From NCBI RefSeq assembly GCF_014451325.2, contig NZ_JACSCH020000010.1:104341-168340 (forward strand): DNA of 64,000 nucleotides, read 5' to 3'. Positions 1 to 16,581 of the stretch are shown here, piece by piece. Source of the DNA: Streptomyces sp. CB02980 (lineage in GTDB: Bacteria > Actinomycetota > Actinomycetes > Streptomycetales > Streptomycetaceae). A program made the translations under genes and the position numbers. Under the pieces are notes generated by a model. It was given only the letters and a program-made list of their open reading frames with translations. It had not been told where the DNA came from and ran no database searches. Each line of letters begins with the position of its first letter. Positions within the stretch are counted from its first letter, which is position 1.

Positions 1-336
1 CGTCCCGGCATCGGCCACCACCAGGACCGGATGCTCCTGGCCGGCCTCCTGCCGCAGCCAGAACACCCTGCCGCCGCGGACCTTGGGCGACCGGACACGA
101 TCGCCGGCGCCGAGCGCCGACACCTCCGCCTCCCACTGCTCCAGACCGGGCCAGGCCGCCCGCTCCGCCGCGTACAGGGCGTCCTGCCCGGCGCTCCAGC
201 GGCGCGTCTCGGCGGTCTCGGCGTTCTCGAGCCAGCGGTACGGGTCCGGGACGCGCACCCCGTGGAGTTCCTGGACGACGTCCTGCCGCTCGGCGTGCGG
301 GTACGGGCGCCGTGTCCGTCGGGCGTCGGTGGTCAC
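1..336 (-). CDS. S9 prolyl oligopeptidase family serine peptidase, N-terminal part (runs off left edge)
   Basis: The visible 112 codons read as the N-terminus of a prolyl oligopeptidase: a YPHAERQDVVQELHG stretch followed by VPDPYRWLEN, the entry motif of the S9A beta-propeller domain. The catalytic domain lies beyond the window. The start is GTG (334-336), whose GTGA overlaps the stop of the MFS gene, with GAGGGAG about 8 nt upstream, so it is translationally coupled as the last visible gene of the minus-strand peptide operon. S9 peptidases of this type remove leader peptides in some lanthipeptide and other RiPP pathways (known for the family). A leader-peptidase role here is inferred from context. 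It could also be a housekeeping oligopeptidase, though the tight overlap argues against an unrelated role. Confidence 0.85.
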   Translation of the reverse strand, partial: MTTDARRTRRPYPHAERQDVVQELHGVRVPDPYRWLENAETAETRRWSAGQDALYAAERAAWPGLEQWEAEVSALGAGDRVRSPKVRGGRVFWLRQEAGQEHPVLVVADAGT

Positions 337-1913
337 TCCGGTCTCCCTCGTTCGTGGTCGGGCGGACGGTGGCCGTGGGATCCGGCCGGAGAGGTGACGT
401 CGACCGTGAGCGCGCCGGCCTTCTCCGCGGTCTTCCCAGCGGCCTTCTCGGGCCCCGTTCGGGCATCCGGCCCGGCACCCGTCCCCGCGGCCTCCCCGGT
501 GCGCTCCGCATCGGTCTCCGCAGCGCCCTTCGCAGCAGCCTCCCCGGGGCCCCCGGCGACGTCCTCCCCCGCGCCCTTCCCCGCGTTCTCCGTGCCCGGC
601 AGGGCAAGCCACGCGAAGACGCCCGACAGGACGACGATCACCCCGGACACCGCGAAGACCGTGTCGATGGGTCCGAACCGGACACCGGCGACCGAGCCCG
701 CGACGTCCGTCAGCACCGAGCCGGCGAGCCAGCCGGACAGGACCGCGGCGAGCATCGACGCCAGCTTCGTCACCGGATAGAACACGGCCATCACCCGACC
801 CCGGAAGTCCGGGGGCGCCGCCGCGAGCAGCAGCGGCGCCATCGCGGTGTTGAGGACGGTCAGCGGAACAGTGAAGACGAAGAGCAGCGCGATGCCGCCG
901 AGGAAGGTGGTCTGCCGGGAGTAGGCGATCAGCAGAACACCGCTCACCAGCAGGCTGATCCAGGTGCTCCGGCGTGCCCCGAGCCACTGCACGACCCGGC
1001 CCCCGCTCAGCGCGCCCGTGATGCCGCCCACTCCCATCGCCATGCCGATGTATCCGTACAGATGGGCGTCGGCGTTGAGGTTGTCGGTGGTGAAGAAGAC
1101 GTTGAGGGTGCTGAGCGCCCCGATCCCGAACTGCCCGATGACGGCCAGCAGAAGAAGCACGACCAGGAACCTGCTGCGGGCGAAGAACCGCACGCCGTCC
1201 GCGAACTCACGGCCCAGGCTGGGCTTTTGGCCCGCCGGTTTCGAGTCGTTCGGAGTCGGCTGGGGAGTGGGCTTCCGGCTCTCCGACGTCGCTGCCGTCG
1301 CGGGTACCTCGATCGACCGGATCGCCACGTACGACACCGCGTAGGACAACGCGTTGAAGAGCAGCGCCCATTGGATGCCGGCGGCGAACAGCAGCGGCGC
1401 CGCGAGCGGAGGGCCGATGATCCAGGCGGTCTCGCCGGTCGCCTGACCGATGCCGGCGGCCCGGGCGCGGTTGGCGTCCCCCTTCACGAGGTCCGCCAGG
1501 ATCGCGAAGCGCGCCGGTGAGAAGAACTGGCCGGCCGCGTGCAGCAGGAGCACGGTCACATAGACGAGGGCGAGCCAGACGCCTGCCGGGAGCGCGTCGG
1601 TCGGCAGGAAGGAGACGGCGGTCAGGACCACCACGAGCACTCCGCGCACCACCTCGGTGCGGAGCAGAGTGGCGAGCTTGTCCCAGCGGTCGACGAACAC
1701 GCCCGCGAGGGGGCCGATGACCAGGACGGCGACGCTGGACGCCATCAGTACGCCGCTGACCGCCATCGGCGCCCACGACTCGCCCTTCGCCAGTACGGTC
1801 GCCACCCACAGCACCAGCGTCGTGCTGAAGACGGCGTCCCCGACGGACGAGACGGCCTGGCCGAACCAGAGGCGGGTGTAGTCGCGGTTGATCAGCGTGA
1901 GGCGCGGTGTCAT
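333..1913 (-). CDS. MFS transporter, probable exporter of the peptide operon
   Basis: A 526-aa major facilitator protein. The N-terminus (MTPRLTLINRDYTRLWFGQ) and repeated hydrophobic segments match the MFS_3/enterobactin-exporter-like group of drug and siderophore exporters. The last 90 or so residues form a low-complexity Ala/Gly/Glu-rich cytoplasmic tail, which is unusual. The ATG start (1911-1913) overlaps the stop of the preceding gene as ATGA, with GAGG 8 nt upstream. A longer open frame continues upstream to 3008 but is only read-through of another gene's antisense frame. Its place between tailoring enzymes and an S9 peptidase suggests export of, or self-protection against, the peptide product; the substrate cannot be read from the sequence. 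Confidence 0.9.
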   Translation of the reverse strand: MTPRLTLINRDYTRLWFGQAVSSVGDAVFSTTLVLWVATVLAKGESWAPMAVSGVLMASSVAVLVIGPLAGVFVDRWDKLATLLRTEVVRGVLVVVLTAVSFLPTDALPAGVWLALVYVTVLLLHAAGQFFSPARFAILADLVKGDANRARAAGIGQATGETAWIIGPPLAAPLLFAAGIQWALLFNALSYAVSYVAIRSIEVPATAATSESRKPTPQPTPNDSKPAGQKPSLGREFADGVRFFARSRFLVVLLLLAVIGQFGIGALSTLNVFFTTDNLNADAHLYGYIGMAMGVGGITGALSGGRVVQWLGARRSTWISLLVSGVLLIAYSRQTTFLGGIALLFVFTVPLTVLNTAMAPLLLAAAPPDFRGRVMAVFYPVTKLASMLAAVLSGWLAGSVLTDVAGSVAGVRFGPIDTVFAVSGVIVVLSGVFAWLALPGTENAGKGAGEDVAGGPGEAAAKGAAETDAERTGEAAGTGAGPDARTGPEKAAGKTAEKAGALTVDVTSPAGSHGHRPPDHERGRPE

Positions 1914-2881
1914 GAGGCCCACCTCGCCGACGAGACGATCGACGCCATGAGGGCCGTCACCAGGGTCGTGTGGTACGCCTTGCGGAAGAACTCCACGGCC
2001 GTGGCCCGCGGCGCGGCCTTGAGCTCCGCCGACCTCCCGGGGATCGCCCCGTCGGGCCGCTGGGCGCGCGCCAGGCACTCCACGGCCGCCGCTCCCGAGG
2101 GCGTGCCGAGCGGATCCTGCCGCAGGACGAACTGGGTGAGGACGAGCTCCGCCGCCAGGTCCCAGAGATCGTGCGCGACGCAGTGGAGCAGCATCCTGTG
2201 GGTGAGGTCCCGCGCGTGATCCAGGTCGGCCCCGGTGATCCGGGGGTCGGTGCGGCCGAAGTCGCCGAGGTAGAAGGCGGTGTGGGTCAGCGCGTACCCC
2301 TGCGGGACGGTGAGCGGCTCCACCGTGCTCCGAGCGGCCGCGTTCGCGGCCGCGGGGCCGGCGGCTCGGAGGGCGACGAGCGGGCTCTGCGGGAGGAGTT
2401 CTGCGTACGACTCGATGTCGTGGCGGACACCCGCCTTGTCCGCGTAGTAGCGGATCTCGATGCGTCGGTACGGTGACTTCCCGCCCGGTGACAGGAACTC
2501 GGGGTCCAGCCGCGCGAGCGCCTCCCGGCACTGCGTGTCGTCGATTCCGGCGGGGGCGAGCGCGGCGTAGACCAGCCGGTACGTGGAGGCGTACGCGGGA
2601 CTGTCGTCGAAGAGCCGCGGGAAGTCCGGGTCCTGCCAGAGCTTCCGCACGAGTGCGGTCGCCCCGCTCAAGGGGTCCGGGGCGGTGTCGTCCGGCCGCG
2701 CCGCGCGGTGACAGAGCAGCCCCAACTCCAGTGCGGCCTTGGCCTTTCCGTGCGCTGTCGATCGGGCTGCCGACCGGGTTCTCGACCCGGTGGTCGCGGA
2801 GAAGGGGTCGAAGTGGTCGAGGTGCCCGCCCAGCCAGTCCAGCGCGCCGGCGGAGAGCTGCTCCAGGAGTGAGGGCGGCAT
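1910..2881 (-). CDS. Helical protein of unknown function (DUF6895-like), paralogue 2 of the peptide operon
   Basis: A 323-aa protein with no recognisable catalytic domain. It is a clear paralogue of the product of 4122..5123: both share WQxPDFPRL, YAALAPAG, THTxFYLxDFG, DPLGTPSGAA, a PDGAIPG motif and a C-terminal FxKxYxxTLVTAL. The regular helix-pair spacing and the PDGAIPG motif recall alpha/alpha-toroid proteins. I associate this family with the label DUF6895 from memory and could not check it. The ATG start (2879-2881) lies 2 nt after the radical SAM stop and has no strong ribosome site, consistent with coupling. Two copies flanking one radical SAM gene suggest substrate-binding or cyclase-like partner proteins rather than transport components. 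Confidence 0.8.
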   Translation of the reverse strand: MPPSLLEQLSAGALDWLGGHLDHFDPFSATTGSRTRSAARSTAHGKAKAALELGLLCHRAARPDDTAPDPLSGATALVRKLWQDPDFPRLFDDSPAYASTYRLVYAALAPAGIDDTQCREALARLDPEFLSPGGKSPYRRIEIRYYADKAGVRHDIESYAELLPQSPLVALRAAGPAAANAAARSTVEPLTVPQGYALTHTAFYLGDFGRTDPRITGADLDHARDLTHRMLLHCVAHDLWDLAAELVLTQFVLRQDPLGTPSGAAAVECLARAQRPDGAIPGRSAELKAAPRATAVEFFRKAYHTTLVTALMASIVSSARWAS

Positions 2882-2883
2882 GG

Positions 2884-4125
2884 CTACAGGCGCCCCGTCT
2901 CGTGCAGATGGTCGAGCAGGGCCGTGTCGACGGTGTCGCGGAACCTGGCGAGCGTACGGGCGTCCTCGTCGTAGCTGTAGAGGTCCTGGCAGGCGATCCA
3001 CCGGTCACCGGTCTCCGCGCTGGGCAGGTAGCCGTCGGCGACCGTGCCGACCTCCCAGTCGGGTTTGCCTGCGGTCTCCCAGCAACTGGCCAGGGTTCCG
3101 TCCGCGCTCACGACCGCGCCGTACCGGCCGTTGGTGTGACCGCAGGTGACGCAGGTCTTCCGGCCGCCGGGGCGGTTCACGGTGAAGCCGAGGTCGAGGG
3201 CCCTGCGCTGCCACCGGGTGAAGGCGGCGGAGAGCTCCCCGGTGTGCAGGAGGCTGTTGGCGTATCCGACGCCGACATCGCCGATGCGGGCGAAGTACAG
3301 CGTGCAGCGCGTGGGGTCGAGCGCGGCCCCCAGCCGGTCGATCAGCGCGTCGACGCCGTGGAAGGTCTCCTGGGAGACGTTGACCCGCAGGGTCCACCGC
3401 AGCGGCGTGACCTCGGAGGCCTTGACGATATTGCGGACGATCCTGTCGAACGTGCCGCTGCCGTCCGCCCTGCCGACCCGGATCCGGTCGTGGTCGTCGC
3501 GGTCGCCGTCGAAGGTGACCTGGACGGAGGTCAGGCCGCGGTCGTGGAGCCGACGGGCGAGGGACGGGGTGAGCAGGGTGGCGTTGGAGATCATCCAGGC
3601 CGAGGTGGGAGCGATGTCCGCGGCCCGCTCCAGGAGTTCGAGACACCCGCGCGGGTTGAGGAGGGGCTCGCCGCCGAAGAGGAGAATCCTGAGCTTCTCC
3701 AAACCCACGGCGGCCATCTGGCGCTCGGTGAACCCGAGGATCGAGGTGATCGTCTCCGAGGTGAGCCGGGTCCGCGCGATCCGCGGCGGCCGGCTCCCGC
3801 CCGCCAGGTCCTGCGCGGTGTTCTGGAAGCAGTAGCCGCAGCCCAGGTTGCAGTGGGTGCTGGTGAGGACGGTCAGGGCGTAGGCGCGGACCGTGGCGGG
3901 GGTGAACATGCCGCTCTCGCGCAGCCGTTGCTCGGCCTCGGGACGCAGGCCTCCGCCGGGGGCGACATGGCGGTCGGCGAGCCGGGCGACGCCGCCCGGA
4001 CCGAGAAACCACCAGGTGCGCTCGCCCCGGAGGAGACGGGCGCCGGAGGAGGCCAGGTCGGTGCCGGCCGGCGGGGCGGAGTGCGCCGTCTGCCGGTCGA
4101 CACTCGTCGCTTGGTCGATGCTCAC
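2884..4125 (-). CDS. Radical SAM peptide-modifying enzyme with SPASM-like C-terminus
   Basis: A 413-aa protein. Residues 92-99 carry the canonical CxxxCxxC motif (C92, C96, C99) that binds the [4Fe-4S]/SAM cluster, followed by GGEP at 151-154. The C-terminal third has C325, C328, C348 and C379 in a layout like a short SPASM/twitch domain, which in peptide maturases binds auxiliary clusters. An N-terminal extension of about 80 residues (RGERTWWFLGPGG) precedes the barrel and could bind the leader peptide. The GTG start (4123-4125) overlaps the stop of the upstream gene as GTGA. With a small peptide gene at the head of the same operon, it is probably a RiPP maturase; the bond it forms is unknown. 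Confidence 0.88.
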   Translation of the reverse strand: MSIDQATSVDRQTAHSAPPAGTDLASSGARLLRGERTWWFLGPGGVARLADRHVAPGGGLRPEAEQRLRESGMFTPATVRAYALTVLTSTHCNLGCGYCFQNTAQDLAGGSRPPRIARTRLTSETITSILGFTERQMAAVGLEKLRILLFGGEPLLNPRGCLELLERAADIAPTSAWMISNATLLTPSLARRLHDRGLTSVQVTFDGDRDDHDRIRVGRADGSGTFDRIVRNIVKASEVTPLRWTLRVNVSQETFHGVDALIDRLGAALDPTRCTLYFARIGDVGVGYANSLLHTGELSAAFTRWQRRALDLGFTVNRPGGRKTCVTCGHTNGRYGAVVSADGTLASCWETAGKPDWEVGTVADGYLPSAETGDRWIACQDLYSYDEDARTLARFRDTVDTALLDHLHETGRL

Positions 4126-5123
4126 CGTGTCGCCTCCTGTACGGCCGTTGCTCCTGCGGCTCCCGCGGCTCCAGTGGCTTCTGTGGTGGAGCGACCGACG
4201 GGTGCGGCCTGCCGGCCGTTGCCGACGATCAGCGTCGTGAGCGCGGTGACGAGGGTCGCCTGGTACGACTTCCGGAAGTACTGCACGGGCGTCGCGTCCG
4301 CCGGGGCACGCCTGACGACGGACTTCCCGGGGATCGCTCCGTCCGGCGCCTGGACCTCGGCGAGCATCCGGATGCCGGCCGCCCCGGAGGGCGTGCCGAG
4401 GGGATCCGCGCCGAGGCAGTACTGCGCGAGCACGAGCTTGCCGACGAGGTCCCATTCGCCGAGGCCCAGGCAGTGGTGGGTGAGCCGCTCCACGACCTGG
4501 AGGGCCTGCTCGCGGGCCTCGTCGGTCAGTCCGGGATCGCGGAGGCCGAAGTCGCTGAGGTAGAAGACGGTGTGGGTGACCACGCAGGCGTCCAGGTCGG
4601 CCACGGGCAGAGTGGCGGCCCGGGCCGGCAGGCTGGCCGCGTACAGCTCGTCGTACGAGGCGAACTCGTGGTCGGCGCCCGCGAGATCGGCGTAGAACCT
4701 CGCCTCCAGGTGGAGGTAGGGGGCCTTGCGCCGCGGCGCGAGGTAACCGACGTCCTTCAGCCGGGCCAGGACGGCGCGGGGGGCGTCGGTGACGGTCCCG
4801 GCGGGTGCCAGTGCCGCGTACATCAGCTCGAACTGCCGGGCGTACCTGCCGTCGAGGGTGAGGAGTCGCGGGAAGTCCGGGCGCTGCCACGCCTGTTCGA
4901 CGATCGAGGTCGCCTCGCGCAGGGCGGTCTCCGCCGGCGCGGACTCTCCCCAGTAGCGGCAGAGCAGCGCGAGCTGCAGGAGGGCCTTGACGCGGGGTGT
5001 CACCGGCAGTTCGGCGTGTCCGGCGGGGGAGTCGAGGTACCCCGCGTGTCGCGCGATCCAGTGCCGCGTACCCATGGACAGACTCGCCACGGCCTCATCG
5101 AGGCCGACTGATCGCGTACTCAT
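4122..5123 (-). CDS. Helical protein of unknown function (DUF6895-like), paralogue 1 of the peptide operon
   Basis: A 333-aa paralogue of the protein at 1910..2881, with the same motif ladder (WQRPDFPRL, MYAALAPAG, THTVFYLSDFG, WDLVGKLVLAQ, DPLGTPSGAAG, PDGAIPGKS, YFRKSYQATLVTAL). It adds an Ala/Gly/Thr-rich tail of about 35 residues. The ATG start (5121-5123) has a very good ribosome site (AAGGAG, 5 nt spacing) and lies 29 nt inside the end of the glycosyltransferase gene. Its GTGA stop overlap couples it to the radical SAM gene. The function is unknown. The paired copies around a radical SAM enzyme, and the conserved HTxFYLxDFG and QxPDGAIPG motifs, are worth structural modelling. Confidence 0.8.
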   Translation of the reverse strand: MSTRSVGLDEAVASLSMGTRHWIARHAGYLDSPAGHAELPVTPRVKALLQLALLCRYWGESAPAETALREATSIVEQAWQRPDFPRLLTLDGRYARQFELMYAALAPAGTVTDAPRAVLARLKDVGYLAPRRKAPYLHLEARFYADLAGADHEFASYDELYAASLPARAATLPVADLDACVVTHTVFYLSDFGLRDPGLTDEAREQALQVVERLTHHCLGLGEWDLVGKLVLAQYCLGADPLGTPSGAAGIRMLAEVQAPDGAIPGKSVVRRAPADATPVQYFRKSYQATLVTALTTLIVGNGRQAAPVGRSTTEATGAAGAAGATAVQEATR

Positions 5124-6300
5124 GGTTCTCCTTCGGGGTCGCGGATGCCTGAGCCGCCCGCTTGACGATGTCGGCCGCGCGGGCCGCGCCGTCCACCGCG
5201 GCCAGCCTGTCGCCGAGCGCGCGGGCTCGGGTCCGCAGTCCTTCGTCGCGCGACACGCACTCCAGCAGCGCCGACAGGTCCACGGACGGGGTCTTCGGGT
5301 CGCGCACGGCCACGCCGGCCCGTACGCAGGCGCCGGTGAGCAGCGGCTGTTCGGACCCGTTGGGCGAGAGCACCAGGGGGCGGCCGCGCAGGAGGGCCGA
5401 CAGGACCGGTGCCGAGGTGCCGTTGGCCAGCACCAGGTCGGCCGCGTCGACGAACGGTCCCATCCAGGGCTTCCGTACGAGCAGGATGTCGGCCTCCGGA
5501 GCGGGCCTGGGGTCGGTGGACCTGCCCTGCTCGACCACCGCCTGGAACGGTCCGCCGGTGAACGCCTCGTTGAGCCGCGGCCAGAGGGTCCGGCCGCCGA
5601 AGAAGCGGCCGAGGTGGACGTAGACGACGGGCTTCCCCGTGCCCGTCCGCTCCAGGTGGTCCTCGACGGCCTCCCACTCGCCCTGCTCGGGAGCTGGTTC
5701 CCAGGCCAGTGGTCCCACGTACCGCACCCGCTCGGGGAGTTCCGCGTCCGGGTACTCGAGTGCCCTGTCCCCGCGGAGCAGCAGCGCGTCACCGAGAAGG
5801 GGATCGTCTTCCCAACGGGAGGCGCGCCCGGCCAGGCCGACCTCCTCCCGCGTGGCGGCGTGGAGCTCCAGGCTGTCGCGGGTCCGGCTCTCCCGGGTCC
5901 TGCCCAGGTGCGGCTCCCCGTCGCCGCCGCTCCGGTAGTCCCACAGATGAACCGAGAGCCCGACCACGACCACCGGAATGTCCAGGGTCTCGGCGGCGAG
6001 CAGGGCGCCGTTGCACAGCACCGAGGTGACGAGAAGATCGGCCCGCGCCGCCCGGGCCGCGCGCAGGATCGCCCGGTACTGCGCGGCACCCGTCTTCCCC
6101 CACCACGTGGCGGAGAACGCCCGGTGACCGCCGAAGTCCTCGGCCACCGCGCACGGCAGCCCGGCCTCGGCGACGACGGGGCCGGCGGAGGACCTGGCGA
6201 GGACGCTGACGTGGTGGCCGCGGCGACGCAGCTCGCGGCCGGCCGCGAGCGCCGGGTAGAGGTAGCCGCCGTCGCTGAGCGGGCAGAGCAGGATCTTCAC
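5095..6300 (-). CDS. MGT/GT1-like glycosyltransferase
   Basis: A 401-aa GT-B fold protein. The N-terminus MKILLCPLSDGGYLYPALAAG is the acceptor-side first strand and loop of the MGT/UGT family. Around residues 300-345 the donor-binding segment reads ANGTSAPVLSALLRGRPLVLSP..SEQPLLTGACVRAGV, matching the usual HGG..EAL..GvP.v..P...DQ..nA motif. The diphosphate-binding His of HGG is replaced by Asn. The start is GTG (6298-6300) with GAGGGAG about 11 nt upstream, 150 nt after the peptide gene. In this operon it may glycosylate the peptide core (a Cys, Ser or Asn is available); that is inference. Macrolide-type detoxification is an alternative but fits the neighbours poorly. Confidence 0.85.
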   Translation of the reverse strand: MKILLCPLSDGGYLYPALAAGRELRRRGHHVSVLARSSAGPVVAEAGLPCAVAEDFGGHRAFSATWWGKTGAAQYRAILRAARAARADLLVTSVLCNGALLAAETLDIPVVVVGLSVHLWDYRSGGDGEPHLGRTRESRTRDSLELHAATREEVGLAGRASRWEDDPLLGDALLLRGDRALEYPDAELPERVRYVGPLAWEPAPEQGEWEAVEDHLERTGTGKPVVYVHLGRFFGGRTLWPRLNEAFTGGPFQAVVEQGRSTDPRPAPEADILLVRKPWMGPFVDAADLVLANGTSAPVLSALLRGRPLVLSPNGSEQPLLTGACVRAGVAVRDPKTPSVDLSALLECVSRDEGLRTRARALGDRLAAVDGAARAADIVKRAAQASATPKENHEYAISRPR

Positions 6301-6373
6301 GACGTGCGCGCTCCCTCGGGGTCGGGCGGGTGGTGGAAGGGCGGAGGGTGATGGCGGTCGGACCGTGAGTGGC

Positions 6374-6424
6374 CGCGGGCCCCCCGGTTCCTGGCGTGAT
6401 GCGCCGAGAACCGGGCGGCCCGCG
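6374..6424 (-). terminator. Strong hairpin between peptide gene and enzyme genes (probable attenuator)
   Basis: Two 17-nt arms (6374-6390 and 6408-6424) pair at 16 of 17 positions around a 17-nt loop. The structure starts 27 nt after the peptide-gene stop and ends about 75 nt before the glycosyltransferase start. There is no long U-tract. In RiPP operons, a partial terminator after the precursor gene commonly makes precursor mRNA exceed enzyme mRNA; that role here is inferred. Confidence 0.6.
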
Positions 6425-6450
6425 AGGTACTCAGGACGAGACGAGTCGCG

Positions 6451-6570
6451 TCAGGAGATGTCGCTGGAGTTGTTGATGATGCAGCCGGCCTCGTCCTCCT
6501 CGGCCTCCCCGTGCGCCACGACCTCGATGTCCTCGTCCTCGACCGGCTTCGGGTTCGTGTTCTCGGGCAT
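6451..6570 (-). CDS. Small acidic peptide, candidate RiPP precursor (39 aa)
   Basis: Forty codons, ATG (6568-6570) to TGA (6451-6453), preceded by a near-ideal ribosome site (GAGGAGGA, about 5 nt spacing). The N-terminal 28 residues begin MPENTNPKPVEDEDIEVVAHG and hold 11 Asp/Glu, with prolines at 2, 7 and 9, which is typical of a RiPP leader. The C-terminal segment is GCIINNSSDIS, with a single Cys, two Asn and three Ser, a plausible modified core. There is no signal peptide. It heads a minus-strand block with a glycosyltransferase, radical SAM enzyme, exporter and S9 peptidase. I recognise no precursor family; the gene call rests on ribosome site, composition and position. Confidence 0.75.
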   Translation of the reverse strand: MPENTNPKPVEDEDIEVVAHGEAEEDEAGCIINNSSDIS

Positions 6571-6987
6571 GTTCGTCCTCCTCGTTTGACGGCGTCGCTG
6601 CGCCGGCTGAGAAGAACGTACGAACGACGGGTATGGGAACGCCTGGTCGTCGGTTCGACGCCGGTATGCGTCGAAGGGACGGACCCGGTACGACTCCGTG
6701 ACGTGGGCCGATGCCCGCGCCGGGCAGCGGCGCCCGGCCGTCCGCAGGACGCCCGCACGCTCCCCCAGGCCCGTTCCGAAGCCTTCCGCACCCCTCCGGA
6801 CCTGGGACTTAACCGTTCACCAGGCGTTCGTGAACCGGAAGTCTGCCGCCCGGGGCCACCATCCAGGAATGCTCCGCGCGCGGTACGAGTGCGGCCGACG
6901 GCGTCCTGACGGCGAGCCGGCAGCGACCTCCGGGAGAACTCGCCGGGGGACCGGGCGCGGCGCGAACTCAAGGAGGAGGAGACGGAC
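6571..6987. promoter_or_regulatory. Divergent control region of the peptide/signalling locus with two inverted repeats
   Basis: A 417-bp non-coding region between the peptide gene and the second radical SAM gene. It holds TTCGACG-8-CGTCGAA at 6654-6675 (perfect 7-bp arms) and GTTCAC-9-GTGAAC at 6815-6835 (perfect 6-bp arms). Both look like dimeric regulator sites. On the minus side the first repeat contains a CATACC-like -10. No clear SigA -35/-10 pair was found for the plus strand. The plus-strand gene has an AGGAGGAGG ribosome site just before 6988. Confidence 0.5.
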
Positions 6988-8169
6988 ATGGACCTGGCGG
7001 AGCTCATCGGCCTGCGGCCGGTGCCCTGCGGTGGTCTCCTCGTGGCACTCACCCGCCGCTGCCCCATGAGCTGCGCGCACTGCTCCACGGGCTCGTCCAT
7101 GGCGGCCTCGGAGGAGCCCGACCAGCGGCAACTCCTCGACTTCATCGGCTCGTTCGGTGCCGAGGACCGCCCAGAGGTGGTCATGCTGACCGGCGGCGAA
7201 CCGCTGCTGCTCCCCGAGCTGGCCGCCCGCGTGGCCGGAATCGCACAGGCCAAGGGGTCCCGGGTGGCACTGCTCAGCGGGATGTTCTTCGCCCGTGGGG
7301 GACGCGTCCCCGACCGGATCATGCGGACGATCACCGCCCTGGACCACTTCTCGGCGAGCCTGGACGTCCACCACGAGCGAGAGGTCCCGCGCGCGGACGT
7401 CCTGCGCGCCCTCCGCGCCGTACTCGACGCCGGGGTCCCCGCCAGCATCCACCTCACGGGCACCGGTACCGGCTCCGGCGCAGGTCCCGGTACAGGCACT
7501 GGCGCGGACGTCGACGACCCGTACCTGGTCGACGTCGTCGCGGACGTGCGCCGTGTCTTCGGAGCCGGGATGCCCATGCTGGTCAACGAGGTGCGGCCGC
7601 TCGGCCGCGCCGCCGGCCTCGTCCGGCCGACGCCGCCGGGACCGGACGACGGCCTGGCGGCGCCCTGCGCCCTCGCGGCCTGGCCCGTGGTCGCCTTCGA
7701 CGGGACGGTGGCGGCCTGCTGCAACCAGTGGACGGTCGACCGGCGCCCCGTTCCCCCGCACCTGCGGCTCGGACACATCGCCGAGGACGACTGGCCGACC
7801 GTCCGCGAGCGTTCCCTCGGCTCCCCGGTGCTGCGGATGCTGCGCGCGGTCGGCCCAAGGCGGCTGCACGCCCGGTACGAGACCGAGCAAGCCCCGGCCG
7901 GCTACTGCCGCAGCTGTCACGCGCTCGCCGACCGCCCGAGCGTCCTGGAGGGCGCGGCCAGGGACGCCGGCGGTCGCGTCGGCGAACTCCTCGACCGGCT
8001 CACCACGGCGCAGCAGCGCGCGGCAGGACCCGCCGCCCTGGTGCGGCGCATGGGCTGCGCGCGCTATGCGCACCTGGTCGAGCCGACGTCCGGAGAGGAA
8101 CGCGTGTCCACGAACGAGCCCCGACCCAACCAGGCGTCGCCAACCGCAGAGGCGAGGAGCAGCCGATGA
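6988..8169 (+). CDS. Second radical SAM enzyme of the locus
   Basis: A 393-aa protein with CxxxCxxC at C25, C29, C32 (LTRRCPMSCAHCS), GGEP at 69-72, and late cysteines C227, C244, C245, C307 and C310 that could ligate an auxiliary cluster, as in peptide or small-molecule maturases. The barrel is interrupted at about residues 158-172 by a Gly/Thr/Ser run (GTGTGSGAGPGTGTG) not expected in this fold. AGGAGGAGG precedes the ATG. It ends in an ATGA overlap with the diiron-protein gene, so the two are co-translated and may act in sequence. Its substrate could be the divergent 39-aa peptide, the 72-aa product two genes downstream, or something else; the sequence does not decide. Confidence 0.88.
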   Translation: MDLAELIGLRPVPCGGLLVALTRRCPMSCAHCSTGSSMAASEEPDQRQLLDFIGSFGAEDRPEVVMLTGGEPLLLPELAARVAGIAQAKGSRVALLSGMFFARGGRVPDRIMRTITALDHFSASLDVHHEREVPRADVLRALRAVLDAGVPASIHLTGTGTGSGAGPGTGTGADVDDPYLVDVVADVRRVFGAGMPMLVNEVRPLGRAAGLVRPTPPGPDDGLAAPCALAAWPVVAFDGTVAACCNQWTVDRRPVPPHLRLGHIAEDDWPTVRERSLGSPVLRMLRAVGPRRLHARYETEQAPAGYCRSCHALADRPSVLEGAARDAGGRVGELLDRLTTAQQRAAGPAALVRRMGCARYAHLVEPTSGEERVSTNEPRPNQASPTAEARSSR

Positions 8170-8909
8170 ACGCCACAACCACAGCGCCCACCGTCACAGC
8201 CCCGACCGCCGCAGCCGCAGCGGCAAGCACCGCCACCGGCGCCGCCACGGTCACGGCATCCCTGGCGCTCCGCACCAAACTCACGCCCACCGCACCCGTC
8301 CTGAGGGCCGCGACCGCCGCGCTCTGGCGACCGGACGGACTGCGGCAGCGGTACGTGCGCTATCTGGCCGCCATGCATCCGCTCGTACGGGCCTCGGTGC
8401 CGCTTCTCGTACGGGCGGCCGAGCGGTGCGCCGCCGAGCGCCACGACCCGGCCGCGCGCCGCCTGGCCGCGTACTACCTCCGCCATGCCGAGGAGGAGCG
8501 GGACCACGACGTCTGGCTGCTCGACGACCTGGCCGCCGCCGGTGCAGGTCCGGCGGCCGTGGCGCACCCGATCGTCGTGGAACTGGCCGGGGCGCAGTAC
8601 TACCGGATCGAACACGAGCACCCCGTGGCCCTGCTCGGCTACATCGCGGTCCTGGAGGGCAACGCCCCCGGGCCGCGGCTCGCGGACCGCCTCGCCGAGG
8701 TCACCGGGCTGCCGGGCGGCGCGTTCCGCACGCTCAGGGAGCATGCGGAGCTCGACGGCGGGCACCTGGACGACCTCTACCGGGTGTACGACGCGCTCGC
8801 GCCGAGCCCGGCCCGGCAGACGGCCGTCTCCGTCAGCGCGCTCCACACGGCGAACCTGCTCACCCGCCTGTTCCTTTCCCTCGCCGAGGACAACGGAGGA
8901 CACCCATGA
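8166..8909 (+). CDS. Heme-oxygenase-like diiron (HDO/TenA-PqqC fold) protein
   Basis: A 247-aa protein. The first 40 residues are an Ala/Thr-rich extension. The rest is an all-helical domain with a candidate metal-ligand set: H107, E109/E110 and H114 in RHAEEERDHD; E164 in LEGN; H193, D197 and H200 in HAELDGGHLDDL. This EExxxHD...E...HxxxDxxH pattern fits HDO-type oxidases and oxygenases, which use two irons and O2 for oxidative cleavage or desaturation. The start ATGA overlaps the radical SAM stop and the end ATGA overlaps the next gene. Metal content and substrate are inferred; a non-metal TenA-like fold is possible but the ligand pattern argues against it. Confidence 0.8.
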   Translation: MNATTTAPTVTAPTAAAAAASTATGAATVTASLALRTKLTPTAPVLRAATAALWRPDGLRQRYVRYLAAMHPLVRASVPLLVRAAERCAAERHDPAARRLAAYYLRHAEEERDHDVWLLDDLAAAGAGPAAVAHPIVVELAGAQYYRIEHEHPVALLGYIAVLEGNAPGPRLADRLAEVTGLPGGAFRTLREHAELDGGHLDDLYRVYDALAPSPARQTAVSVSALHTANLLTRLFLSLAEDNGGHP

Positions 8910-9124
8910 CCGACAACGCCGCCCCGCACGGCACGGAGCCCACCCTGGAGGCACTCGCCGCCGCGGGCTTCGACGTGGACGCGCTGAGTGATGAACAGCA
9001 GGACGTCGTACGGGCGTTGACGCCGGACGAGCTGGCTCTGCTGGTCGACATCAGGGGGCGTCTCGACGCGGCGGCCCCCGAGGTCCAGGCCCACGCGGAC
9101 GTGGCGGGCGGCGCGCTGTTCTGA
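8906..9124 (+). CDS. 72-aa protein, resembles 'aroma-sacti cluster' small proteins
   Basis: A small acidic, Cys-free protein. Its centre (EALAAAGFDVDALSDEQ and LTPDELALLVDIRGRL) looks like a two-helix domain, and it ends DVAGGALF. From memory it resembles small actinobacterial proteins labelled 'aroma-sacti cluster domain' found beside radical SAM genes; I could not verify this. The start ATG overlaps the previous stop as ATGA, and GGAGGA lies just upstream. It could be a substrate or leader-like peptide for the upstream enzymes (the helical region and GG recall NHLP-type leaders) or an adaptor. Only three residues follow the GG, so a normal precursor role is doubtful. Confidence 0.75.
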   Translation: MTDNAAPHGTEPTLEALAAAGFDVDALSDEQQDVVRALTPDELALLVDIRGRLDAAAPEVQAHADVAGGALF

Positions 9125-9200
9125 CGCGGGGCGCACCGCCGCCCCGGCAGTCGAGTGGTCCCCGTCGAACCCCCCGTCCCCCCGTCCACCGGAGGAATCC

Positions 9201-12200
9201 ATGCCCTGCGCTTCGTGCGGGAGTGCTCTGCCGCCCGGAGCCCGGTTCTGCCCGTCCTGCGGCAGCCCGTGCGCTCCCGGGCCGGTCACGGCCAGGCCGA
9301 CGGGCCGCAAGGTGGTGACGGTCCTCTTCTGCGACCTGGTGGGCTCCACCGCGCTCTCCGGGGCGCTGGACGCGGAGACGCTGCGGTCGGTCACGCTCCG
9401 CTGGTTCGACCTGATGCGGCTGCGGATCGAGGAGCAGGGCGGCACGGTGGAGAAGTTCATCGGGGACGCGGTGATGGCGGTGTTCGGTGTGCCGACGGTC
9501 CGGGAGGACGACGCACGGAGGGCGGCCTCCGCGGCCCTGGCGATGAGGGAGGCGCTCGCCGGGTTCAACGCGCGCCTTGAGGAGGCCGTGGGGGTACGGC
9601 TCGAGATGAGGATCGGAATCAACACCGGTCAGGCGGTGACGGGTTCGGCCACGCAGCGGCAGGCGATGGTCTCGGGCGAGGTGGTGAACGTGGCCGCCCG
9701 CCTGGAACAGAACGCGGCGGCCGGCGAGATCCTGCTCGGTCCCGGCACCCTCGCGGCCGCCGGGCCGGGCATCCGGACGACGGAGACGGGCCCCCTGCTC
9801 CTCAAGGGCAAGAGCGACCGGGTGGCGGCGCACCGTCTGGTGGCGCTGGACGAGGAGGACGGCCCGGAAGCCCTACGCCGCTTCGACGTCGGCTTCGTCG
9901 GCCGTATGCACGAACTGACGCTGATGAACGAGGTGTTGACCCGGGTGGTGCGAAGGGGAAGCGCCGACCGCCTGGTGGTGGTCGGAGAGGCGGGCCAGGG
10001 AAAGACCCGCCTGATACGGGAGTGGCTGCACCACGCGACAGCCACGGGCCGGAGGGACGGACGCACGCCGCCGCTCCCCACGCCCCACGCGCCGGCGAAG
10101 GGCCCGGACCCGGCCTCAGGGCCCGCCCCGCTCCCGGGTCCCGCCCCCCGTCACGGCGTCGGGCGTTGTCGGGCTCGGGGTGAGCAGCCCAGTCTCGGGC
10201 CGCTTGCCGATGCGGTGGCCGGGCTGCTGAAGAGCCTTGGCGCGGTCGTGCCTTCGCCCGAACTGGACCTGCTCCGTCAGGGCCTGCTCCTCGACGGGAC
10301 TCCCCATCCGTCCCCGGCGGACACCTGTGCCGCGCTCGCCAAGGTTCTCGCCGAGCTGTCCGAGGAACAGCCCCTCGTGCTGGTGATCGACGACTGTCAC
10401 TGGGCGGCGCAGCCGCTCTTCGACGCCCTCGACCGGCTCCTGCGCGCCCTCACCGACGCGGCCGTCCTGATCGTCCTGCTCACCCGACCCCAACTGTTCG
10501 ACGTGCGGCCCGAACTCGCCCCGGGCGCCGTCCTGCTCGGCGGCCTCTCCGATGCCGAGGCGCAGCTCCTCGCGGCCGAGCTGACGGGGCAGGCGGCCGA
10601 CGGCGCGCCGCTCGCACCGCAGGTCCTGGCGCGGGTCGGCGGGAATCCGCTGCACCTGGAGCAGCTGCTCGTGGCGGGGAACCCCGTCGACGCGGACAGC
10701 GTCCCGCTGCCCCTCCAGGCCCTGATCGGGGCTCGGATCGACGCGCTCGAACCGCCCGAACAGCGGGCCCTCGGCCTGGCGTCCGTCCTCGGCGGCGACT
10801 TCACCGCCGACGAACTCACGGAGCTCGCCGGACCTCCCGCCGAGACGTGGACCGAGTCCGAGCTCCGGACCACCCTCCACCGGCTCGTCCGTCACCGTCT
10901 CATCAGGCCGGACGGCAGGGCGTTCCGCTTCGCCGGAGGGCTGATCCAGGAGGTCGTCCACACCAGCCAGTCCAAGCAGGACCGCGCCGACCGGCACGAA
11001 CGCGCGGCACGCCTCGACACGGTCCGGCACCGCGGCAGTGCCGCGGTCGGGGCGCATCTGGAGCAGGCGTACCGCTATCGCGTCGAGCTCGGCGCCCAGG
11101 ACGCGCACACCGACGGGCTCCGGCGACGCGCCGCCGACGCCCTGGCGGAGGGCGGTCGTCTCGCGCTGGCCCACGCCGACCCCGTATGGGCCGCCGACCT
11201 GCTGGGCAGGGCCACGGACCGGTACGCGGCGGGCGAGCCGGGCCGTGCGGCCACGCGACGGCGGCTCGGCCAGACGCTGCTCGACCTCGGCCGCGTGACG
11301 GAAGGCCGGGCACTGCTCGAAGAGGTCCTGGCGGAGGTTCCGGCGGACGGCTGCGGGACCGATGCGGTGGAGGCCGCGCACGCCCGACTGGGCCTGGCGT
11401 CCGCCGGCCTGGCGTCCGCAGGCCGGTCGGCAGCCGGCCGGTCGGACAGCCGCCGGGCCGGGACGACGAGCCGTACGGAGGAAGCGTGCGGCGCCGGGGA
11501 CGCCCGGTCCGAGGACAGCCTCCCCGAGGCGAGTCCGGCGGCGGACGGTACGTCGACCGGGGAGCCGCGGACCGACGACGACAGCCCGTCCGGGGGCAGT
11601 CGGTTCGCTGCCGCCCCCGGTGCCCACGCTCGGTTCCCCACGCGCCCGGCCGTGCGCCGTATCGCCCCCGGCGGTGAGTCGCCGGCCGAGGCCGCAGCCG
11701 TCACCCTGCCCGTCTTTGCCGCCGCCGGTGACGAGTTCGGCCAGGCCCGGGCCTGTCTGCGGCTCGCCCAGCAGGCCCAGGAGCAGGGCCGGCACCGGGA
11801 AGCCGAGCGCCTGCTCGACCGGGCCCTCGGACATGCCGTACGGGCCGATGCCGAGCCCGAGCGGGCCGCCGCCCTCGGGGCCATGGGGGTGTCCCTCTGG
11901 CGCGGGCCTCTCCCCGTCGTGGACGCCGTGACCCGCTGCCGCGCCCTGCTCGCCGAGCAGGGGGCCGGCCGCCGCGCCGTGCGGCTGACGCTCAACTGCC
12001 CGCTGGCCGTTGTTCTCGCCCTGCACGACGACAGGGACGGCGCGCTGGCCTGCCTCGCGGAGGCCGGACAACTCGCCCAGCGGCTCGGCTACGCCGAGAC
12101 CGACGCCTTCCTGCCCCTCTTCACCGCCACCGTCGACGACCTGGCCGGCCGCCGCGAGGAGGCCCTCCTCAACCTGGAGCGGGCCGCCGCCGCCGCGCGG

Positions 12201-12698
12201 GCGCTCGGCGCCACCGGGCTCCTGCGCAGCGCCCTCCTGGACGCCACCCGCATCCGCCTCGACCTCGGCGACTGGCGTACCGCACACGACACCCTCGCCG
12301 AACTCGAACCGCCGGGAGGGCGGTCCGAGGCGGCCCGGCCACGCGCCGAATCGGCCGACCTCGACGGTCTGCGCGCCCGGATCGCCGCGGTACGAGGGGA
12401 GGCCGCGACCGCCACCCGCCTGGCCGACCGGGCGCTCGCCACCGCCGTCCGTACCGACTCGCCCATCGTCCAGGGTCTCGCCGCACTCGACGCTGCCCGC
12501 ACCGCTCTGGCGTTGGGACACACGAAGGACGCGGCCGAGGCGGCGGTGCGCGCCCGGTGGAGCTTCGCCGCCAAGGGCCACCTCCCCGCGGCACGCGAGG
12601 CCGAGGCCGTCGCCCTGCGCTGCCGGGGCCGCCGGGCCTTCGGGCCCGGCTCCGTCGGCCCGGCGGTCAGCGGAACCGGAAAGGACGCCCAGCGATGA
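9201..12698 (+). CDS. Adenylate/guanylate cyclase fused to AAA/NACHT-like ATPase and TPR-type repeats
   Basis: A 1165-aa multidomain signalling protein. Residues 3-25 form a zinc ribbon (CASCG...CPSCG). Residues 38-205 are a class III nucleotide cyclase with VLFCDLVGST (metal Asp), KFIGDAVMAVFG, RIGINTGQAVTG and SGEVVNVAARLE. Then comes an ATPase with Walker A GEAGQGKTRLI and Walker B LVLVIDDCHWA, followed by long helical repeats resembling TPRs. Two low-complexity inserts interrupt it, one soon after Walker A and one of about 110 residues in the repeat region. GGAGGAATCC precedes the ATG, and the stop overlaps the protease start (ATGA). Such proteins sense a signal through their repeats; cAMP or cGMP production is inferred. 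Confidence 0.9.
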   Translation: MPCASCGSALPPGARFCPSCGSPCAPGPVTARPTGRKVVTVLFCDLVGSTALSGALDAETLRSVTLRWFDLMRLRIEEQGGTVEKFIGDAVMAVFGVPTVREDDARRAASAALAMREALAGFNARLEEAVGVRLEMRIGINTGQAVTGSATQRQAMVSGEVVNVAARLEQNAAAGEILLGPGTLAAAGPGIRTTETGPLLLKGKSDRVAAHRLVALDEEDGPEALRRFDVGFVGRMHELTLMNEVLTRVVRRGSADRLVVVGEAGQGKTRLIREWLHHATATGRRDGRTPPLPTPHAPAKGPDPASGPAPLPGPAPRHGVGRCRARGEQPSLGPLADAVAGLLKSLGAVVPSPELDLLRQGLLLDGTPHPSPADTCAALAKVLAELSEEQPLVLVIDDCHWAAQPLFDALDRLLRALTDAAVLIVLLTRPQLFDVRPELAPGAVLLGGLSDAEAQLLAAELTGQAADGAPLAPQVLARVGGNPLHLEQLLVAGNPVDADSVPLPLQALIGARIDALEPPEQRALGLASVLGGDFTADELTELAGPPAETWTESELRTTLHRLVRHRLIRPDGRAFRFAGGLIQEVVHTSQSKQDRADRHERAARLDTVRHRGSAAVGAHLEQAYRYRVELGAQDAHTDGLRRRAADALAEGGRLALAHADPVWAADLLGRATDRYAAGEPGRAATRRRLGQTLLDLGRVTEGRALLEEVLAEVPADGCGTDAVEAAHARLGLASAGLASAGRSAAGRSDSRRAGTTSRTEEACGAGDARSEDSLPEASPAADGTSTGEPRTDDDSPSGGSRFAAAPGAHARFPTRPAVRRIAPGGESPAEAAAVTLPVFAAAGDEFGQARACLRLAQQAQEQGRHREAERLLDRALGHAVRADAEPERAAALGAMGVSLWRGPLPVVDAVTRCRALLAEQGAGRRAVRLTLNCPLAVVLALHDDRDGALACLAEAGQLAQRLGYAETDAFLPLFTATVDDLAGRREEALLNLERAAAAARALGATGLLRSALLDATRIRLDLGDWRTAHDTLAELEPPGGRSEAARPRAESADLDGLRARIAAVRGEAATATRLADRALATAVRTDSPIVQGLAALDAARTALALGHTKDAAEAAVRARWSFAAKGHLPAAREAEAVALRCRGRRAFGPGSVGPAVSGTGKDAQR

Positions 12699-13621
12699 CC
12701 ACCGGCCGGAGGCCGGACAAGGCCTCCACCCCCACCACGCCGGGCCCGGCGCCGACAGGCCGACCCGACGGGGCCGAGACCCGGACCCGGACCTCGGCCC
12801 GGACTTCGGCCCCCGGACTCACCTGGGGCCTCCGAGGCCGTGGCCCCGACGACGTACCCGTGGAGGCCGACCATCCGCCGGAGCCGCCCGAGGGCGGTCT
12901 GCTCGGTGGGACCGGGCGCGGCGTTCGCGTCTGCGTGGTCGACTCCGGGGTCGAACGCGACCACCCCATGGTCGGCCCCGTCGACCAGTCCTGGCGCGTC
13001 TTCAAGGACGACGACGGTGTCCACGTCGAGGAGACCGACGAGGGCGACGCCTGCGGTCACGGCACCGCCTGCGCCGGGATCATCCGCCGCACCGCCCCGG
13101 ACTGCGAGCTGTCCAGCGTCCGCGTGCTCGGCGAGCGGTTCTCCGGCAGCGGCGACATCCTCCTCGAAGGGATCCGCTGGGCCGTCCGCCAGCGCTTCGA
13201 CGTCGTGAACCTCAGCCTCTCCACCAGCCGCGACCGCTTCGTGGAGGAACTGCGCCGGCTGGCCGACGAGGCGTACTTCCAGCAGACCGTGATCGTCGCC
13301 TCCGCGCACAACACCCACGTGGAGAGCTTCCCCTGGCGTTTCTCCTCGGTGATCTCGGTCGGCAGCCACCAGGAGGACGACCCCGACCTCCACCTCTACA
13401 ACCCCGAGCCACCGGTGGAGTTCTTCGCCCCCGGCCAGCGGGTGCAGGTGGCCTGGCTCGGCGGTACGTCGATCCGTACCTCCGGCAACAGCTTCGCCAC
13501 CCCGTTCGTCGCCGGCCTCTGCGCGCGGATCCTGTCGAGCCGACCGCGGCTGACGCCGTTCCAGCTGAAGAACGCCCTGTACCTGTCCGCCGCCAACGTC
13601 CGTGTCCACGGCAGCCGGTAA
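12695..13621 (+). CDS. S8 (subtilisin-like) serine peptidase, probably cytoplasmic
   Basis: A 308-aa protein with all three catalytic motifs: Asp in VCVVDSGVERDHP, His in CGHGTACAG, and Ser in GNSFATPFVAG (the usual GTSMATP). The oxyanion Asn is present in VASAHNTH. There is no signal peptide and no I9 prodomain; a disordered segment of about 55 residues precedes the catalytic domain, so it probably works inside the cell. ATGA coupling to the cyclase/ATPase gene suggests a cyclase-controlled or complex-bound protease. Processing of the peptide from the divergent operon is an alternative. Confidence 0.9.
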   Translation: MTTGRRPDKASTPTTPGPAPTGRPDGAETRTRTSARTSAPGLTWGLRGRGPDDVPVEADHPPEPPEGGLLGGTGRGVRVCVVDSGVERDHPMVGPVDQSWRVFKDDDGVHVEETDEGDACGHGTACAGIIRRTAPDCELSSVRVLGERFSGSGDILLEGIRWAVRQRFDVVNLSLSTSRDRFVEELRRLADEAYFQQTVIVASAHNTHVESFPWRFSSVISVGSHQEDDPDLHLYNPEPPVEFFAPGQRVQVAWLGGTSIRTSGNSFATPFVAGLCARILSSRPRLTPFQLKNALYLSAANVRVHGSR

Positions 13622-13646
13622 CGACCGGCGCCGGAAGGGAACCCCC

Positions 13647-14231
13647 ATGGCTCAGACGATCGCCCCCGCCGTCCCCTCCGCGCCCCGGCCCGATCCGGCC
13701 ATGGCGGAGCTTCTGCAGTCGGTCGTGGACACCGCGCGCGCCATCTTCGGCGCCGAGGCGAGCTCCATCCTGCTCCTGGAGGAGGCAGCGGACGAGCTCG
13801 TCTTCGAGGCCGTCTCCGGACAGGGGCAGGAGTTCCTGGTGGGCCGGCGCTTCCCGGCGGGCCGGGGGATCGCCGGCTGGGTCGCCGCCTCGGGCGAGCC
13901 GATGGTCGTCGACGACCTGCACGACAGCACGTCCTTCGACCGGGACGTCGCCCGGTCCACCGGCTTCGTGCCGAACGCCCTGATGGCCGCGCCGCTCGTG
14001 CACGGAGACCGTGTCCTCGGCGTACTCGAGGTCCTCGACCCGTCTCCGCAGGCCCGGTCCAGCCTGTCCGAGCTCGACCTGCTGAGCCTCTTCGCCCGGC
14101 AGGCCGCCGTCGCCCTGCACGTCCTCACCACCCACGCACCTCGCGGGGCGGAACCCGCCGCCCCCGAGGACCCCGCGCGGGCCGAACTCCTGCGCCTCCT
14201 CGCGGAGGCCCGCCGTCTCCTGGAGGAGTGA
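13647..14231 (+). CDS. GAF-domain sensor protein
   Basis: A 194-aa protein that is essentially one GAF domain (residues 15-160: ILLLEEAADELVFEAVSGQG, RGIAGWVAASGEPMVVDDL, MAAPLVHGDRVLGVLEVLD) plus a short helical tail. It has no kinase, phosphatase or cyclase output domain, so it probably acts by binding a ligand and a partner. It lies 25 nt after the S8 peptidase stop, with GGAAGGGAA before the ATG. As the last gene of the plus-strand block it may give cyclic-nucleotide or small-molecule input to the cyclase/ATPase. The assignment to this operon rests on spacing only. Confidence 0.88.
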   Translation: MAQTIAPAVPSAPRPDPAMAELLQSVVDTARAIFGAEASSILLLEEAADELVFEAVSGQGQEFLVGRRFPAGRGIAGWVAASGEPMVVDDLHDSTSFDRDVARSTGFVPNALMAAPLVHGDRVLGVLEVLDPSPQARSSLSELDLLSLFARQAAVALHVLTTHAPRGAEPAAPEDPARAELLRLLAEARRLLEE

Positions 14232-14264
14232 GGACCCGAGACACCCAGAGGTACCCAGAGATGC

Positions 14265-14319
14265 CCCGGCCTGCCCCGGCCTGCCCGGGCCGGTCGTCGG
14301 GCGGCCGGGGCAGGCCGGG
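14265..14319. terminator. Bidirectional terminator hairpin
   Basis: A perfect 17-bp inverted repeat (14265-14281 and 14303-14319) with a 21-nt loop lies between the convergent ends of the GAF and katG genes. Very GC-rich stems without a U-tract are common terminators in Streptomyces. Confidence 0.75.
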
Positions 14320-14325
14320 TGCGGG

Positions 14326-16581
<2,256 letters not shown>

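Follow-up and report, generated by a model that had tools for sequence, protein, structure and literature searches.

What is made by an operon in which a 39-aa peptide gene stands ahead of a radical SAM enzyme, a glycosyltransferase and two related helical proteins? The genes lie at the start of the window (the whole 64,000-nucleotide stretch of Streptomyces sp. CB02980 DNA analyzed here, contig positions 104,341 to 168,340) in the order precursor, glycosyltransferase (GT), DUF6895 protein #1, radical SAM enzyme, DUF6895 protein #2, MFS exporter and prolyl oligopeptidase (Table 1). A first-pass annotation, made from the sequence alone, had described seven packed minus-strand genes headed by the peptide gene, and every part was located with the overlaps as claimed: GTGA at 4122-4125 (DUF6895/radical SAM) and 333-336 (MFS/S9), and ATGA at 1910-1913 (DUF6895/MFS). 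The GT gene additionally overlaps DUF6895 #1 by 29 nt, and the S9 gene is complete as a 778-aa frame crossing the window edge (locus L003). That inventory was correct for the operon but overlooked a second radical SAM gene (rSAM2) and the adjacent, often linked aroma-sacti module on the other strand. Lanthipeptide, lasso, YcaO (TOMM) and B12-dependent classes are ruled out, as the operon has no such gene, and so is a glycocin, there being no GT2-family (SunS-like) glycosyltransferase.

Table 1. Features of the operon and the adjacent module, in window coordinates.
Feature	Position	Strand	Evidence or remark
S9A prolyl oligopeptidase, N-terminal part	1..336	-	PF02897; ~2.0 kb more outside window
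MFS exporter	333..1913	-	PF07690 E 4.4e-31
DUF6895 protein #2	1910..2881	-	PF21836 E 7.4e-70
Radical SAM peptide maturase, CteB-like	2884..4125	-	PF04055
DUF6895 protein #1, (alpha/alpha) barrel	4122..5123	-	PF21836 E 4.6e-77
MGT-like glycosyltransferase, GT-B fold type	5095..6300	-	TIGR01426 57.3 bits, below cut-off of 260
Conserved hairpin (21 bp) in precursor-GT intergenic region	6374..6424	-	z -4.6
Precursor peptide gene, 39 aa	6451..6570	-	MPENTNPKPVEDEDIEVVAHGEAEEDEAGCIINNSSDIS; VVAH motif, single Cys30, Cys-X-X-Asn
Shine-Dalgarno GAGGAGG, precursor gene	6577..6583	-	read directly
rSAM2, second radical SAM enzyme	6988..8169	+	divergent from precursor; part of linked aroma-sacti module
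Haem-oxygenase-like iron redox enzyme, start approximate	8187..8909	+	PF14518
72-aa aroma-sacti domain peptide	8906..9124	+	NF045560 80.2 bits, cut-off 30
Class III nucleotide cyclase / AAA ATPase regulator-like protein	9201..12698	+	same cluster in 45 loci
S8 (subtilisin-like) peptidase	12860..13621	+	same cluster in 33 loci
GAF-domain protein	13701..14231	+	same cluster in 32 loci

The first question is whether so short a frame is a gene at all. It is no chance frame, because it follows a ribosome-binding site, because four other Streptomyces loci have exactly the same DNA for it and yet are only 55-82% identical in the intergenic stretch directly downstream, and because a family motif recurs with it, namely (E/D)VVAH, an acidic spacer and Cys-X-X-[Asn/His/Gln]. 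A genome scan for the radical SAM enzyme gave 61 homologous loci, 48 of which contain the strict precursor pattern (81 matches, against 2 in codon-shuffled control loci); with four variant precursors, a VVAH-type precursor occurs in 52 of the 61, nearly always immediately upstream. None was recognized in six loci (L081, L083, L084, L085, L089 and L090), and three more (L033, L043 and L080) are truncated by contig ends. Several relatives are multicore, with two to six core repeats that each have their own VVAH-type motif, and L041 and L052 have two separate precursor genes apiece. The core contains one Cys, conserved in essentially every core of the family, and the third position after it is occupied by Asn, His or Gln, except in L068 and L074, which have Phe there. 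No curated precursor model, including those for aroma-sacti and StsA, matches the 39-aa peptide. The earlier reading had been made to depend, among other things, on the peptide being conserved and encoded near these enzymes, and it has survived on these two counts. With a precursor gene conserved beside maturation enzymes across genomes, as in RiPP systems, the operon very probably represents a RiPP family that uses a 39-aa VVAH-type precursor.

It is well supported that the window cluster belongs to a widespread actinobacterial cluster family. Common to this family are the precursor and one radical SAM enzyme family, usually with an MFS exporter (54 of the 61 loci) and mostly with a prolyl oligopeptidase (43), to which the window's subfamily adds a GT (43) and two DUF6895 barrels (DUF6895 in 32). 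A P450 is found nearby in 16/61 loci and a second radical SAM enzyme in 21/61. The family has no curated precursor model, and the exact gene set of the window is only one of several variants within it.

Which reaction does the radical SAM enzyme carry out? CteB (thermocellin) and PapB (freyrasin) are ranthipeptide radical SAM enzymes that form Cys thioethers. PapB joins Cys to Asp/Glu, making Cys-Xn-acid thioethers (PMC9413430). The window's enzyme shares with them the radical SAM fold, an N-terminal leader-binding-like region, the CX3CX2C motif (as an invariant CNLGCGYC) and a Cys-containing precursor nearby; in this motif and in its thioether-maturase-type fold it agrees with ranthipeptide/sactipeptide maturases. 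It differs from both in that conservation of cysteines in the C-terminal part is limited to C274, C325, C328, C348 and C379; conservation of CxxC-x14-G-x4-C and C379 suggests one auxiliary cluster. The annotation as radical SAM/SPASM-like holds for CX3CX2C and for a partly SPASM-like C terminus, but the Pfam SPASM domain has no match in the protein. All NCBIfam radical SAM equivalogs score far below cut-off (best 116.5 bits vs 525), so no known family reveals which reaction it catalyzes. We consider the odds even that the enzyme forms a Cys thioether in the core. The same RiPP family might instead undergo other chemistry at Cys-X-X-[N/H/Q], such as a C-C cross-link, an alpha-carbon (sactipeptide) thioether, epimerization or oxidation, which would agree with the lack of a full SPASM domain by Pfam, with core residues unlike the Cys-X3-Asp/Glu sites of PapB type, and with the likeness of the enzyme model to SkfB, ChlB and sulfatase maturases (Z 21-23). 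However, the thioether-former CteB leads in both structure (nearest fold, Z 24.1 over 343-346 residues) and sequence, a likeness that takes in the N-terminal region, and the lone Cys is retained almost throughout the family; we regard these other chemistries as unlikely.

The two paralogous proteins (42% identical) had been recorded as of unknown function. Their paralogy stands, but they are not unassigned, since both belong to Pfam DUF6895 (PF21836; 259.7 and 236 bits vs a gathering cut-off of 23.8). The AF2 model of DUF6895 #1 (pLDDT 91) had no significant Foldseek match (best E 0.02), and a PDB sequence search returned no relative; VIA-align retrieved (alpha/alpha) barrels at Z 15-18. This fold is common to 2-epimerases and terpene cyclases, and glycosidases also fit, so the fold by itself is not diagnostic of an epimerase. 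Residues K46, E140, R142, Y144, H152, H184, D191, W224 and Y287 are conserved. One DUF6895 protein is reported to epimerize a lasso peptide (Shi et al., ACS Catal. 2026, 10.1021/acscatal.5c08590); the window's proteins are of the same Pfam family and differ in occurring as a paralogous pair, in an operon that has a radical SAM enzyme and is not of the lasso type. DUF6895 is present in 30/30 loci with Cys-X-X-Asn-X-Ser cores versus 0/22 with other cores, which do not amount to 30 independent events because the DUF6895-carrying loci are largely one clade. An epimerase function for the pair is tentative, at slightly less than even odds.

The GT is only a distant relative of the MGT family; its nearest solved structures are CalG2 and YjiC, and Pfam gave weak GT4/GT28-type matches only. 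Glycosylation of the final peptide, which the first-pass annotation also proposed, is probable. The full oligopeptidase aligns with prolyl endopeptidase 2bkl (E 3.4e-118), including the GGSNGG Ser, D and H, and is thus an S9A enzyme. Some RiPPs, for example class III lanthipeptides (FlaP), lose their leader to a prolyl oligopeptidase; the window likewise has an S9A enzyme in the cluster, but its operon contains no lanthionine synthetase. Prolyl oligopeptidases favor cutting after Pro. In 32 of 37 loci that have the oligopeptidase, each core Cys is preceded by Pro or Ala at a distance of at most three residues; among loci lacking the enzyme the count is 3 of 10 (p 0.001). These loci are largely related by clade and are not independent events. 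The residue preceding the window core is Ala, not Pro, and a cut at EA|GC is possible rather than probable.

Our main reading, to which we assign a probability of roughly 0.55, is that the operon's product is a small, secreted RiPP, which would be cross-linked at Cys, tailored by the DUF6895 proteins and the GT, released by the oligopeptidase and exported by the MFS protein. The radical SAM enzyme would recognize the leader, probably through the DVVAH segment, which multicore relatives repeat ahead of every core. It would link the sulfur of the lone Cys to a residue close by in the core, with position +3 (Cys30 to Asn33) the likeliest, giving a four-residue thioether ring. The two DUF6895 proteins may epimerize at least one residue in the N-X-S-X-X-L/S tail, and the GT would add a sugar onto the core. 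Cleavage beside the core, after Pro or Ala (EA|GC here), would then yield approximately GCIINNSSDIS for export by the MFS protein.

How does the neighboring module relate to this pathway? The score of its 72-aa peptide against the aroma-sacti model makes a second precursor likely. The operon and this divergent module could be parts of a single two-peptide system, with rSAM2 acting on the VVAH precursor as well, and rSAM2 and the first radical SAM gene are indeed no more than 15 kb apart in 18 of the 39 genomes with the first and 18 of the 23 with both, rSAM2 often being on the far side of the precursor. Yet 30 genomes have rSAM2 without the first radical SAM enzyme, rSAM2 usually accompanies its own aroma-sacti peptide, and many VVAH loci lack it, and a single system is accordingly rather improbable. 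Likeness of the operon to aroma-sacti/StsA-type clusters is confined to this module, with its NF045560 peptide and radical SAM enzyme.

Mycofactocin is a ribosomal peptide processed by a radical SAM enzyme, a peptidase and a glycosyltransferase, a combination of genes that the operon recalls. The product may by analogy with mycofactocin or PQQ be a small redox cofactor or signal cut from the C terminus, with the GT acting on a small molecule; the short cores with one invariant Cys and the linked nucleotide cyclase and GAF protein would suit this. The chance is slim, however: multicore precursors (up to six cores) and the frequency of the MFS exporter fit a secreted product, and the patchy distribution of the first radical SAM enzyme (39/298 family genomes at E 1e-60) fits specialized metabolism. 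Unlike mycofactocin, the window system has an unrelated precursor with multicore relatives, MFS and DUF6895 proteins, and an MGT-like GT without a GT2 match. A rival view, in which the enzymes do not act on the 39-aa peptide and the operon serves another purpose, is hardly credible, given family-wide conservation, multicore relatives and the ribosome-binding site.

Does the secreted, cross-linked peptide that we favor belong to a new class, as had been proposed? The RiPP assignment holds, with the precursor conserved beside its enzymes, but a wholly new class is not established, and the cluster is better termed a new family within radical-SAM RiPPs because its maturase resembles thioether maturases of the CteB kind. 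Compared with the CteB and PapB systems, it is actinobacterial, has one Cys per core in Cys-X2-[N/H/Q] rather than Cys-X3-[D/E], and adds a GT, DUF6895 proteins, an oligopeptidase and an MFS exporter. It is doubtful that these amount to an undescribed class, in which a CteB-like enzyme would make an unprecedented Cys-X2-[Asn/His/Gln] cross-link, with glycosylation, D-residues from the DUF6895 pair, and multicore relatives swapping in a P450 or second radical SAM enzyme. A literature search, with most subscription journals outside its reach, found no description of the window cluster. The decRiPPter study reports 42 candidate Streptomyces RiPP families (PMC7794033), and the window family possibly coincides with one of them.

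The family defines, by sequence, a substrate for an uncharacterized radical SAM enzyme, and Cys-X-X-[N/H/Q] predicts the modified site. DUF6895 gains a second, non-lasso peptide context together with a matching substrate motif. The multicore relatives, some with as many as six cores, lend themselves well to in vitro work on the chemistry. A product that proved both cross-linked and glycosylated would show a rare combination among radical SAM peptides. A search of window positions 1-15000 against Rfam matched no family, the hairpin included. Among 11 loci, two base pairs of this hairpin have changes on both sides of the stem, and it is probably an attenuator or an mRNA-stabilizing stem.

The first-pass annotation had proposed a RiPP-like operon headed by a gene for a 39-aa peptide, and this operon is real: all seven genes were located on the minus strand of the window, and the overlaps described between them are borne out at four junctions that share at least 4 nt.

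Genes of the operon and the adjoining module, in window coordinates (window placement G000:C2:104341-168340)
Feature	Position	Strand	Remark
39-aa peptide gene	6451-6570	minus	
Glycosyltransferase	5095-6300	minus	
DUF6895 protein, first	4122-5123	minus	
Radical SAM enzyme	2884-4125	minus	
DUF6895 protein, second	1910-2881	minus	
MFS transporter	333-1913	minus	
S9 peptidase	starts 336, continues ~2 kb outside the window	minus	778 aa in L003, the locus holding the full gene
Aroma-sacti module	6988-14231	plus	complete, adjoins the operon

The 39-aa peptide is a genuine precursor. When one genome per prokaryote species was scanned with the radical SAM enzyme, relatives turned up at 61 loci, spread over Streptomyces, Kitasatospora, Actinacidiphila, Streptosporangiaceae, Pseudonocardiaceae, Catenulispora and Micromonosporaceae, among other taxa. 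A strict precursor motif ([VI][VIL]AH, 3-24 residues, C-X-X-[NHQ]) was matched in 48 of them, with 81 matches in total versus 2 in the codon-shuffled copies used as control, and nearly all lie directly upstream of the radical SAM gene on the same strand. Variant precursors in L055, L068, L074 and L093 bring the total to 52 of 61 loci, and three of the remaining nine are cut by contig ends. Multicore precursors are common among relatives, with a VVAH-type motif preceding every core: the count is two or three for most of L062-L073 and L078, four or more in L079, and six in L076. A separate second precursor gene occurs within the same operon in L041 and L052. The six-core precursor (L076 7369-7872, Kitasatospora sp. 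MAP5-34) is a handy substrate for biochemistry. The Planobispora precursors, which lie immediately upstream of position 8001 in L068 and L074, show an aberrant two-cysteine core, CLWFSGQCA[LV]YYADS.

The 120-nt precursor gene is identical in four other genomes (L034-L037), all synonymous sites included, and the 30 nt upstream (window 6451-6600 compared) show at most one difference across the five; the intergenic DNA directly 3' is only 55-82% identical, and the encoded enzymes differ by 5-15%. Identical precursor DNA beside diverged enzymes suggests gene exchange or constraint at the DNA level. The ribosome-binding site is GAGGAGG. A strong hairpin between the precursor and glycosyltransferase genes (6374-6424, z -4.6) is kept in 11 loci, with two pairs changed on both sides, and probably sets the precursor:enzyme ratio.

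The radical SAM enzyme, closest to that of Streptomyces aureus NRRL B-2808 (97%, tree columns), carries the invariant motif CNLGCGYCFQN and five more conserved cysteines (274, 325, 328, 348, which is Ser in three rows, and 379). Its top NCBIfam scores are RiPP maturases, yet far under cut-off. The nearest solved structure by sequence is 5wgg, and the AlphaFold model (pLDDT 84) best matches the fold of CteB (Z 24.1 over 343-346 residues; Foldseek E 7e-15). CteB and PapB produce Cys thioethers, PapB linking Cys to Asp/Glu at Cys-X3 with other spacings tolerated (PMC9413430).

Counted over the 61 loci, as lower bounds since some are truncated, the glycosyltransferase occurs in 43, DUF6895 in 32, the MFS transporter in 54, the oligopeptidase in 43, a P450 in 16 and the second radical SAM in 21. 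The glycosyltransferase is distantly related to MGT and lies closest to CalG2 and YjiC; homology to 2bkl (E 3.4e-118) identifies the S9 protein as a prolyl oligopeptidase. The two helical proteins noted earlier are both present, and the identity now assigned to both is DUF6895 (Pfam). The first is confidently modelled (pLDDT 91) as an (alpha/alpha) barrel resembling squalene-hopene cyclase, cellobiose 2-epimerase and GlcNAc 2-epimerase (Z 15-18), and a title in the references of PMC13352647 reports one DUF6895 member to be a lasso peptide epimerase. A Cys-X-X-Asn-X-Ser core is present in 30/30 DUF6895 loci with a readable precursor versus 0/22 other loci, which suggests that DUF6895 works on this tail; in the tree the DUF6895 loci are largely one clade, and the association therefore represents one or few events. 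Of 37 loci with the oligopeptidase, 32 place Pro or Ala within the three residues ahead of each core Cys, as do 3 of 10 loci without it (p 0.001, under the same clade caveat), a bias that fits a cut immediately before the core.

Precursor and enzyme genes form an observed family; each chemical step is an inference. In the favoured reading, the leader would be recognised at DVVAH, and a radical cross-link formed at Cys30, most likely with Asn33; the DUF6895 proteins would epimerise the core, which would also be glycosylated, released by the oligopeptidase around EA|GC and exported by the MFS transporter.

The 39-aa precursor matches no curated Pfam or NCBIfam model, three of its relatives gave no convincing NCBIfam match, and a literature search, with most subscription journals outside its scope, found no published description of the operon. 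It is rated as belonging to the radical SAM RiPPs and not as a categorically new system, because the subscription literature may already include the family, as could one of decRiPPter's 42 candidate families.

The neighbouring aroma-sacti module comprises the second radical SAM (rSAM2), a haem-oxygenase-like enzyme, an aroma-sacti peptide (NF045560, C-terminal VAGGALF), a nucleotide cyclase/AAA protein, an S8 peptidase and a GAF protein. Among 298 family genomes, 39 have the first radical SAM, 53 rSAM2 and 23 both, 18 of these within 15 kb; since others hold only one, operon and module are linked but separable, and rSAM2 is read as belonging mainly to the module. Some relatives without rSAM2 (L050, L053-L056, L058, L060, L068, L074) have an ATP-grasp-like gene instead, the aroma-sacti peptide not always alongside.

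DUF6895 also occurs elsewhere. In another conserved small operon (L110, L112-L119) it is encoded once or twice alongside a ~235-aa protein and a beta-lactamase-like hydrolase of ~356 aa; a 60-62-aa peptide (e.g. MTNEYELRDSTKVSDTDIEEALNPGESQGFYRDSRECAALALAGGQGGVLLSPPTPRPKKR) often heads this operon, which is possibly an unrelated DUF6895 RiPP. In L104-L107, L109 and L111 the domain is part of proteins as long as 520-596 aa, with a 65-83-aa ORF resembling a carrier protein ahead of them.
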